Positions 6,561-37,544 of a stretch of 64,000 nt of DNA are shown here, one piece after another. The first letter of the stretch is position 1. Each line of letters opens with the position of its first letter. The notes below the pieces were generated by a model. That model saw only the letters and a program-made list of their open reading frames with translations. It did not search any database and was not told the DNA's origin. Where the stretch lies: NCBI GenBank assembly GCA_017463985.1, contig JAFUEH010000014.1, forward strand, positions 44,664-108,663. Reading direction: 5' to 3'. This stretch comes from Eubacterium sp. GTDB lineage: Bacteria; Bacillota; Clostridia; Oscillospirales; Acutalibacteraceae. A program made the position numbers and the translations under genes.

Positions 6561-6590
6561 AAAGAGCAAGCATAAGGCTTGCTCTTTTTC
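6561..6590. terminator. Bidirectional intrinsic terminator
   Basis: An 11-bp perfect stem (6561-6571 with 6577-6587) and a 5-nt loop have a T run on the plus side and a matching run (from the AAAGAAAAG side) on the minus side. It can end both the epimerase transcript and the minus-strand RNA at 6.6-6.8 kb. Confidence 0.85.
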
Positions 6591-6790
6591 ATAAATCCGC
6601 ACATCCGCCGACACTGAAGATAACCTGCCGTTATACGCAGGTGGGCTTCATCCCGTAAGCTTTGTGCTCCCAGCGTCCTGCACCGTCAAGGCGGAACAGG
6701 GAGGTCTGCATACCCACAGACGGAGCATGAATCCCGTTTCATTTATTGTTCGGGTTATTAAAGCGTCGGTTACCGTGATGCGCAGACATT
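6562..6790 (-). ncRNA. Structured non-coding RNA, candidate 6S RNA
   Basis: About 190 nt without an ORF fold into a closed structure on the minus strand. The ends pair (6773-6783 and the CCGAC next to it with 6599-6614), and internal hairpins include GTCTG/CAGAC, CTCCC/GGGAG and ACCTGC/GCAGGT. A strong terminator follows the 3' end on that strand, which is why I place the RNA there. The 3' part reads GCTTACGGGATGAAGCCCACC, which resembles the 3' half of some 6S RNAs as I remember them; this is a recollection, not a match. 6S RNA binds sigma-70-type RNA polymerase holoenzyme in stationary phase. No convincing promoter is visible upstream, so it could be processed from a DUF1292 read-through transcript. 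Confidence 0.5.
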
Positions 6791-6811
6791 AATCTACTTT
6801 GTTCTTATTGT

Positions 6812-7129
6812 TTACTGCTCCGGCTCAAAATATTCAACGTCGTATTTTTCTTCTACCATCGCCATTAATATATCAGAAACCTGTTCGTATTCCACGTCGT
6901 CCGCGATTTCTTCCAGGTACTCGTTGCCGTCCGCGTCCTCAACGACCTTCAGGATGATGACCTCAAAATCACCTTCAACGATTTCCTCAGCGTCGTCGCG
7001 GTATTCCGTAATGGCGACATAAACGGCGTCCTCCGTTTCGTAACGCTCCAGCAGTTCAAATTCTATTTCCCGTCCGTCATCGTCAGTAACGGAAATAATA
7101 TCCGGCATATAAAGCTCGTCGTTATCCAT
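6812..7129 (-). CDS. DUF1292 protein (YrzB family)
   Basis: A small acidic protein of 105 residues with the DUF1292 pattern: MPDIISVTDDDGREIEFELLERYE, then YVAITEYRDD and a C-terminal acidic stretch. The function is unknown. In many Bacillota it is encoded with ruvX and the IreB-family gene, but here it stands apart from ruvX, which is at 45.98 kb. The start was set at ATG 7129 because GGAGAAGG precedes it at good spacing and family similarity begins there; the frame extends upstream to 7234 without support. Confidence 0.85.
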   Translation of the reverse strand: MDNDELYMPDIISVTDDDGREIEFELLERYETEDAVYVAITEYRDDAEEIVEGDFEVIILKVVEDADGNEYLEEIADDVEYEQVSDILMAMVEEKYDVEYFEPEQ

Positions 7130-7271
7130 ATTCCTTCTCCTTGTAAGCTTATTGCGATAGCGCTCAACACTTCTATTATAGACTCCTTTCTCTATGAAGT
7201 CAATAATATTCTTAAGAATTAGACACTTGTGCATTATGATGAAAATATTTTAAAAAAGTGGAAAAAAGTTG

Positions 7272-7300
7272 TTGACAAATTACAAAAAGTATGCTATTAT
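7272..7300 (+). promoter_or_regulatory. Strong sigma-A-type promoter of the 7.3-kb RNA
   Basis: A consensus TTGACA (7272-7277) and TATTAT (7295-7300) are 17 bp apart. Transcription would begin near 7307, right at the first base-paired element of the downstream RNA. Confidence 0.8.
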
Positions 7301-7379
7301 CTAGTTGAACTTAGAGGTAAGCTCAAATAGAAAGAATAGAAAGAGCTGCAGTTCAAATAAACAAAGGAGGGCTAATCCA

Positions 7380-7427
7380 ATGGGCAGTGAACCAAAGAAT
7401 TTAGCCACCTGTACAGTATCTCAATAA
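7380..7427 (+). other. Mini-ORF (15 codons) inside the large RNA
   Basis: ATG at 7380 lies 9 nt after GGAGG and reads MGSEPKNLATCTVSQ before TAA. It may be translated, or the SD-ATG may be a structural or ribosome-docking motif. Two even shorter relatives occur downstream: 7699-7710 (MDS) and 7797-7811 (MDNC), both with the same upstream ATCC and a purine-rich SD. Confidence 0.35.
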
Positions 7428-7812
7428 AATAACGGTCAGCTTAATCGACAGAGGTAAAACGGAATTACCTACGGATTAAATCTTGTGTAAGAAAAAAATA
7501 GTTATTGACAGGGTTGAGGCAGTACTTACAGGTGTAGAAAAGTGAATAATAAGGATATATAAGATTATTTTCCTGTCGGTAATCAGAGCCGATATAGCTC
7601 TATAAAAAAGTATCAGTTATTATAACACCAATTATTAAGGCAAGTCCGAATTTTTAGTGAGTACTTTAGAAAATCATCAATTATTCGAGGGAAATCCAAT
7701 GGACAGTTAAAGCATATTGATGTTATATCAATGAACCAAGAAAACAAAATAAAATGAATTCAGTTTAACAATCCACAGAAAAACGGAGGATATCCGATGG
7801 ACAATTGTTAAC

Positions 7813-7846
7813 GCTCCCAATCGTAAAGAAGGTTGGGAGCTTTTTT
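7813..7846 (+). terminator. Intrinsic terminator of the large RNA
   Basis: An 8-bp stem GCTCCCAA/TTGGGAGC (7813-7820 with 7833-7840) is followed by six T residues. Confidence 0.92.
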
Positions 7847-7906
7847 ATTGTCTATTGTTAATTGTAAATATTGCATGAATATTATTAACATTGTGTTAAC
7901 AAACCC

Positions 7907-7935
7907 TTGACCTCTTCCTGACAGCTTTCTATAAT
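7907..7935 (+). promoter_or_regulatory. Promoter of the yicC-remA-gmk-rpoZ operon
   Basis: TTGACC (7907-7912) and TATAAT (7930-7935) have 17-bp spacing, 29 bp ahead of the yicC start. It shows that the operon does not depend on the upstream RNA promoter. Confidence 0.75.
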
Positions 7936-7963
7936 AATTATAATCTACGATTGGAGGAGTGTT

Positions 7964-21334: not shown

Positions 21335-21556
21335 CAAAAGGCTTTGAATAAGAGGAGTAGCATCGCGGCGTTTTCAGAGAGGCTGCGGACGGTGCAAGCA
21401 GTCAGCAAAACGGTGTGAAGGTCGCTTAGGAGCCGGAGGGGTGAAAGCAGTAGCCCGTCCCGTCTGTCTGCGTTAAGGATTGGAGTGACACAGTTTTCTG
21501 TGTAATTTGAGTGGTACCACGGAAGTATTCCGCCTCATTGTGAGGCGGATTTTTTA
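21335..21556 (+). promoter_or_regulatory. T-box riboswitch upstream of valS
   Basis: The leader contains the T-box bulge sequence GAGTGGTACCACGGAAG at about 21509-21525, which pairs with the tRNA acceptor end in the antiterminator. A terminator (CCGCCTCA/TGAGGCGG and six T) follows at 21529-21556. Stem I with AG-rich bulges spans roughly 21345-21440; GTC near 21420 could be the valine specifier codon. It measures uncharged tRNA-Val and lets transcription into valS only when valine is short. Confidence 0.92.
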
Positions 21557-37468: not shown

Positions 37469-37513
37469 TGGCAGGGGCAGAAGGACTTGAACCCTCGGCA
37501 CGCGGTTTTGGAG
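37469..37513. repeat. Right attachment site (attR), 45 bp
   Basis: Identical to 27232-27276. It forms the 3' part of the intact tRNA-Trp gene. Confidence 0.9.
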
Positions 37514-37544
37514 ACCGCTGCTCTACCAACTGAGCTATACCCCT
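37469..37544 (-). tRNA. trnW: tRNA-Trp (anticodon CCA)
   Basis: A 76-nt cloverleaf on the minus strand with encoded CCA. The acceptor stem AGGGGTA/TGCCCCT, D arm with AGCTCAGTTGGTAGAGC, anticodon loop CTCCAAA and T arm GAGGGTTCAAGTCCTTC are all intact. The anticodon CCA reads UGG. The 3' half comes from the island's attachment site. Confidence 0.97.

Follow-up and report, generated by a model that had tools for sequence, protein, structure and literature searches.

The window analysed here (the whole 64,000-nucleotide stretch of Eubacterium sp. DNA) carries a compact transcription unit at positions 7272-7846. Its promoter lies at 7272-7300 on the plus strand (TTGACA-17-TATTAT, with 11 of the 12 consensus bases and a TG before the -10 element). 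The RNA itself spans 7307-7846, with the 5′ end inferred from the position of the -10, and it closes with an intrinsic terminator at 7813-7846, composed of a stem (7813-7840) followed by T's. The first-pass annotation had described a promoter-to-terminator unit with a strong promoter, an intrinsic terminator and no gene-sized ORF, and our analysis bears this out. Its further description of the product as non-coding stands insofar as the RNA is structured, but not in the plain sense of the word, since the RNA contains a short SD-led reading frame (ORF1, 7380-7427) and two minigenes (7699-7710 and 7797-7811). The predicted fold is more stable than expected from dinucleotide shuffles (z = -2.76), with 1 of 100 shuffles folding equally well. 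Within its own genome the RNA occurs once; a second match covers the promoter region alone. Positions 7252-7303 share 77% identity over 52 bases with the sequence preceding a 16S rRNA gene in this genome and, because this second match runs into the start of the 16S gene, the promoter can be said to resemble a ribosomal RNA promoter. By script, a promoter of the same shape was found in 29 of 30 loci of the genus.

Upstream of the RNA and divergent from it lies a DUF1292 gene (6812-7126, minus strand; the family name is that of the first-pass annotation), whose start near 7126 was taken from the 105-residue query that we used, the mechanical ORF extending over 6812-7234. This neighbor is a constant feature: the gene stands next to the RNA, in divergent orientation, in 59 of 62 loci, and in the remaining three the contig ends within 242 bases. 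The RNA had been placed between DUF1292 and yicC, and only the first half of that setting is conserved, as yicC adjoins the RNA in 1 of 62 loci (the window alone, within the DNA examined). With no fixed gene downstream and a terminator preceding yicC, we rejected the idea of a cis-acting leader or attenuator. Beyond DUF1292, the window also holds a 6S RNA-like match (6590-6791, minus strand; 44.7 bits, E = 5e-8), which falls just below the gathering score of 46.4; among related loci, 6S RNA scored above the gathering threshold in 8 of 10 and 7 of 20 of those scanned, with one locus (L082) belonging to both sets.

The RNA is well conserved within its genus. Homologues were recovered by BLASTN, a check suggested in the first-pass annotation, in 48 of 80 genus genomes, and a covariance model of the core (R1; 205 positions, derived from an alignment of 29 relatives, of which 25 were used and near-duplicates omitted) found it in 60 of 80, once per genome, including 44 of the 51 genomes with completeness of 90% or more and contamination of 5% or less. 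Further afield, R1 detected it in at least 9 of 398 genomes of a family sample (seven from the home genus and two from genera with one genome each) and in at least 4 of 394 genomes of an order sample, all from the home genus; these counts are lower bounds, as six candidates per genome were scored. A core pattern also matched six metagenome contigs, assigned to Eubacterium sp., Oscillospiraceae, Ruminococcaceae and Clostridiales; goat reticulum and sheep ileum appear in the titles of two of these contigs. Some of the bearers of the RNA are gut bacteria. We found no link to phages: the core pattern matched three IMG/VR contigs, none of which was confirmed by the model (0/3), and the RNA sits, as the first-pass annotation had also noted, at a chromosomal locus off any phage.

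Size, structure and setting had suggested kinship with the large RNAs ROOL, OLE and GOLLD. However, when the proposed search of Rfam covariance models, which extended to raiA, was carried out over the window with all 4,227 families at their gathering thresholds, nothing matched the RNA, and a search of 7140-7960 at E values of up to 10 gave no credible match, the best (E = 0.19) being a PyrG leader lying on the terminator. Nor is the RNA a tmRNA or a stand-in for one, as a tmRNA scores above its cutoff elsewhere in the genome (RF00023, 141.5 bits) and none is found here; identity with 6S RNA (RF00013) was likewise rejected, the 6S-like match adjoining the RNA and not coinciding with it. We therefore give almost no credence to the idea that the RNA is a divergent form of ROOL, OLE, GOLLD, raiA or any other known family. 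What had been offered as the fallback, a new class, describes the findings better: the RNA matches no Rfam class, is conserved and shows compensatory changes. In the available portion of PMC12286853, ROOL, OLE and GOLLD are likewise large, conserved, structured bacterial RNAs; unlike them, the present RNA matches none of the models, has translation signals and keeps a fixed chromosomal locus beside DUF1292.

The 5′ end of the RNA folds into a stem (GAAC...GUUC, 7307-7354; from the alignment and the minimum free energy fold), the inner part of which is variable or absent in relatives. The core domain follows at 7404-7606 (188.8 bits with R1), and here the covariation analysis called for by the first-pass annotation did reveal homologues with compensatory changes. 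Standard pairs make up 85.4% of the cells in a MAFFT alignment, compared with 70.4% after shuffling and at most 40.2% with slid partners, and 29 of the 38 core pairs change on both sides. One helix (helix 3, UAAC/GUUA) is one column off register in R1 and has 36% of its cells paired, as against 82 to 97% in the six others; it thus counts against the pairing totals. Two pairings proposed from the sequence of the window were confirmed. The first, 7406-7413 with 7527-7534, is a covarying helix (P2a, 7406-7412 with 7528-7534; six of seven pairs change on both sides and 96.6% of cells are paired) which closes the core. The second, 7507-7512 with 7572-7577, is a covarying pseudoknot that crosses the core-closing helix, its 3′ strand lying in the loop of a covarying hairpin; it reads GACAGG/CCUGUC in the window and GCAGG/CCUGC, GCAUG/CAUGC or GUCGG/CCGAC in relatives. 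When the 5′ strand of each of 60 of the 62 sequences was scored with its own 3′ strand or with that of another species, the own partner scored higher for the closing helix (16.4 versus 11.5), for the pseudoknot (16.7 versus 14.4) and for a further helix that involves the ORF1 stop region (11.4 versus 9.4).

ORF1 leads into this core. In the window it comprises an SD and 15 codons (MGSEPKNLATCTVSQ*, 7380-7427), and the second half of it supplies the 5′ strand of the core helix; across relatives it is SD led, 10 to 17 codons long, and ends as one strand of that helix. A script found ORF1 in 59 of 62 genomes (15 codons in 37 and 16 in 13), a count that includes one wrong pick (G048), and inspection by eye shows it clearly in G074, G075 and G078 too, where the SD is weaker. 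For 51 of the 59, again by script, the stop codon lies 0 to 5 nucleotides 5′ of UAACG or a close variant. The reading frame is kept, and its peptide is not: among close pairs of 36 distinct sequences, we counted 55 synonymous and 126 other single-codon changes, in a test confined to the 44 of 62 genomes whose ORF1 contains EP or KP (the other 18 being omitted), a choice that makes the proline seem invariant. These counts do not support a conserved small protein, and the conserved coding frame with synonymous bias that the first-pass annotation had named as a counterargument is not what ORF1 presents.

The placement of the ORF1 stop raises the possibility of a translation-coupled switch, in which translation of ORF1 keeps the pseudoknotted domain open and low initiation allows it to fold and act on another target, the tail serving as a ribosome collector. 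Candidate targets would be RNA polymerase, 6S RNA and DUF1292, and the covariation of the stop region with its partner strand, together with the presence of 6S RNA beyond DUF1292 in several loci, is in keeping with this. In contrast, R1 gives weak matches at most in 66 loci of other genera and in two loci of a second family (see below), so that such a switch would have to be lineage specific. We consider this reading unlikely.

Downstream of the core, the tail of the RNA consists of repeated cassettes of the form RRGG-N-WCCR-AUG-(1-2 codons)-stop, of which one to four copies follow the core in the home genus. The window has two with an AUG, ending after two and three codons, respectively: GAGGGAAAUCCA-AUG-GAC-AGU-UAA at 7687-7710 (minigene ORF, 7699-7710) and GGAGGAUAUCCG-AUG-GAC-AAU-UGU-UAA at 7785-7811 (minigene ORF, 7797-7811). 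An AUG-less copy (AAGGCAAGUCCG-AAU-UUU-UAG, 7637-7657) lies some 50 nucleotides 5′ of the first of these. We collected 131 cassettes from 62 genomes. The stop follows one codon after the AUG in 93, two codons in 27 and comes later in 11, so that 120 of 131 end after one or two codons, whereas a first-order random model expects 16% and other ATGs in the same tails do so in 33 of 129 cases. At codon 3 the count is UAA 65, UAG 20, UGA 8 and UGG 0. Among 125 distinct cassettes (found with the CC required and the R not), a stop comes after one or two codons in 110 in frame, compared with 43 and 13 in the other two frames; the 43 in frame +1 exceed chance because of AU-rich, UAA-type endings. In this set, 42 cassettes have no stop at codon 3, and 27 of them have it at codon 4. 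Interchangeable stop codons at two registers point to selection acting on start and stop codons and not on one fixed sequence. These elements thus have what defines a minigene, a conserved SD, AUG, one or two codons and stop, the second copy of the window having three codons after its AUG. The RNA is easily classed as non-coding, yet its starts and stops are among its best-kept features.

The context of the AUG is also distinctive. When the AUG was not required in the search, it nevertheless followed 130 of 138 motifs, while among 173 ordinary SD-led genes a single one has CCR ahead of its AUG. The distance from one copy to the next (n = 69) is 45 to 69 bases in 50 cases and 98 to 117 in 15; a single recognized cassette was found in 14 of 62 genomes. 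Occlusion of the SD by an upstream hairpin was considered and rejected as weak (mean pairing, 0.61 versus 0.56).

The 3′ end of 16S rRNA in the home genus, taken from three genomes, is GGCUGGAUCACCUCCUUUCU. The cassette of other genera, AGGUGAGUCCR, is predicted to pair with it as AGGUGA plus UCCR around one bulged G, and the R is accommodated since U can pair with either purine. The home genus has a small loop between the two pairing parts, and its predicted pairing is only moderately strong. Computed duplex energies were -11.8 kcal/mol for 108 distinct cassettes and -9.2 with shuffled spacers; ordinary SD genes (n = 165) gave -10.0, and the sites examined in other genera (n = 37), some of which may not be cassettes, gave -13.7. 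Of the 108, 95% pair more strongly than their own shuffled mean, a comparison that is partly circular, since the CC was part of the search.

DUF1292 was detected in 117 of 136 family genomes, and we inspected 66 of the 113 DUF1292 loci outside the four core-bearing genomes, mostly the best scoring. An ATG in cassette context, followed by a stop after 1 to 24 codons, was found on the RNA strand in 24 of 66 loci and on the other strand in 5; one of the 24 (L194) was dropped by eye, leaving 23 of 66 that carry cassettes and/or ORF1. Of 63 such ATGs, 34 (in 14 loci) stop after one to four codons, compared with 0 of 13 on the opposite strand, though the two strands differ in coding content also. 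R1 left weak traces at most in these loci, the best being in L142 (E = 0.0045) and L139 (E = 0.025), both in the right place and on the right strand; it matched nothing over L163-L202, and a weak match in L208 lies outside the array. Two loci (L138 and L166) have many cassette copies, and four (L145, L148, L153 and L156) show, by eye, little beyond ORF1 and cassettes. In L166 (genome G211), nine cassettes run along the RNA strand from 633 to 1161, to the end of the stretch, six with an AUG (MK*, MYK* and one cut off) and three without (CCAACAAUYACUUAA). In a second family (f26), two genomes carry an array beside DUF1292 (tblastn E = 2.5e-12 and 1.8e-11), with an ORF1 of 17 codons and minigenes that read, by eye, MY*, MR* and MT*. 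A search of the class with an array pattern matched 5 of 391 genomes and a reversed control pattern 2, which means that a match by itself lacks specificity. Three genomes (G144, G500 and G560) have their match at the DUF1292 locus, and those of G1136 and G1186 were rejected as not cassette-like by eye. As the array is seen where R1 finds weak traces at most, it has a wider distribution than the core fold captured by R1.

AUG-less copies recur outside the home genus (L138, L145, L148, L153, L156, L166 and L183), and in the two f26 genomes, G500 and G560, they are conserved from one to the other. GUGAGUCCR without an AUG was seen in L148, L153, L183, L208 and L209, several of these copies keeping a stop in the would-be AUG frame. 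Conserved copies of this kind are what one would expect if GUGAGUCCR were a protein-binding site and the stops after AUG merely forbade longer peptides. This is difficult to reconcile with the AUG kept in 130 of 138 home-genus motifs, with three stop types at two registers, with the GUG in one copy of L142 or with the complementarity to 16S rRNA, and we regard it as improbable.

The cassette may be a module that is used elsewhere too. Over the 80 genus genomes, the cassette pattern gave 48 matches and its reverse 4; six of the 48 lie outside the RNA, each in a different genome, and represent three kinds of locus (L125, L126 and L128; L127 and L131; L129), a modest excess over a background of about four. 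The genes behind them are, by eye, secreted, membrane or lipoprotein-like, and in L125, L126 and L128 the start-stop arrangement persists through a change of stop codon from UGA to UAA. A match in G051 (L132), inside a coding repeat, was rejected as chance. Single cassettes preceding other genes would suit a role in self-protection, by which ribosomes on ORF1 and the minigenes shield the AU-rich RNA from nucleases in cis; leader minigenes have been proposed to stabilize mRNA in cis, according to the accessible part of PMC8708949. The working part would then be the structured domain or another part of the RNA. Against this, L145, L148, L153 and L156 seem to offer no large domain to protect, and conserved AUG-less copies would not hold a 70S ribosome. 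To our minds, both the shielding and a working part elsewhere in the RNA are possible, if doubtful.

A further alternative is that the minigenes are toxic and drain tRNA through peptidyl-tRNA drop-off, as lambda bar does. The portion of PMC8708949 available describes ORFs of two codons that combine a strong SD with a UAA stop as the more toxic form. However, one chromosomal copy is kept in 60 of 80 genus genomes under an rRNA-like promoter, where a strongly toxic RNA would hardly be expected to persist; we consider this explanation very improbable indeed.

We favor instead the view that this chromosomal RNA represents a new class and serves to engage ribosomes, a reading drawn from sequence comparison to which we assign a probability of about 0.5, the docking, sponge or sensor part being inferred. 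Since the landing sites end after one or two codons, the RNA probably holds or senses ribosomes and does not make protein. The predicted 16S pairing suggests how: 30S subunits would dock on the cassettes, pairing through the 16S 3′ end on both sides of the bulge or small loop, and a docked subunit would initiate, terminate at once and then stay or reinitiate. One RNA could in this way hold several ribosomes without a protein product. Conserved AUG-less cassettes imply that initiation would not be needed at every copy, and the one recognized cassette in 14 of 62 genomes is weak for a sponge. Given the rRNA-like promoter, the amount of RNA would track ribosome production, and it would then titrate or sense free 30S subunits or ribosomes. 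Translation of ORF1 would open the core fold, such that the domain forms solely when initiation is low. Taken in full, a growth-linked, trans-acting RNA whose start-stop sites capture 30S subunits or idling ribosomes and whose ORF1-gated pseudoknot lets it both titrate and read ribosome load is a tentative proposal, and we hold it with less confidence than the broader statement. The titration or sensing step and the ORF1-gated folding are its least certain parts.

Sponge RNAs of the CsrB type carry several copies of one motif per RNA, as here, with the difference that the putative ligand of the present RNA is the 16S 3′ end or the ribosome and not a protein. Two-codon minigenes (lambda bar and those in the LEE1 and axe-txe leaders) likewise have, as far as the available text describes them, an SD, an AUG, one or a few sense codons and a stop, and yield no useful peptide. 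In the accessible part of PMC8708949, known minigenes are single or paired, lie in mRNA leaders and act in cis on a gene, whereas those described here are arrayed in a separate RNA gene that ends in a terminator; the lambda bar minigene has been studied for its toxicity, to judge from titles cited in PMC8012679. Staphylococcus aureus has extended SD sites in which pairing with 16S rRNA is likewise prolonged towards the start codon, and these serve ordinary genes, in the excerpted text of PMC13009471. In our cassettes, the predicted pairing instead jumps a bulge or small loop to the UCCR before the AUG, and the ORF ends at once. Ribosome-associated noncoding RNAs (PMC8938821, seen in extract) are also proposed to act on the ribosome; the present RNA differs from those in the extract in being an array of initiation sites in its own gene. 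There are precedents for minigenes, for extended SD sites and for sponge RNAs taken singly; what would be new, as far as sequences can indicate, is the class of RNA with its putative function. Among the literature matches listed, which cover few of the subscription journals, we found no description of an RNA gene with an array of start-stop minigenes.

Regulators of translation are usually pictured as protein factors or as elements that act on mRNAs. If this conserved, single-copy RNA gene is indeed organized around an array of sites where ribosomes dock, it would be a regulator of another kind, and one deletion would make it possible to test how bacteria buffer or sense free ribosomes.

Some smaller observations may be added. 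C is the final base of the second codon in 121 of the 131 home-genus minigenes (mostly UAC, GGC, UUC, CAC and GAC), though the region is AT rich, and the second codons of other genera include AAA, AGA, GCA and AUA. Elsewhere in the window we noted a T-box leader (21335-21540, 136.6 bits) and a tRNA gene (37472-37544, minus strand).
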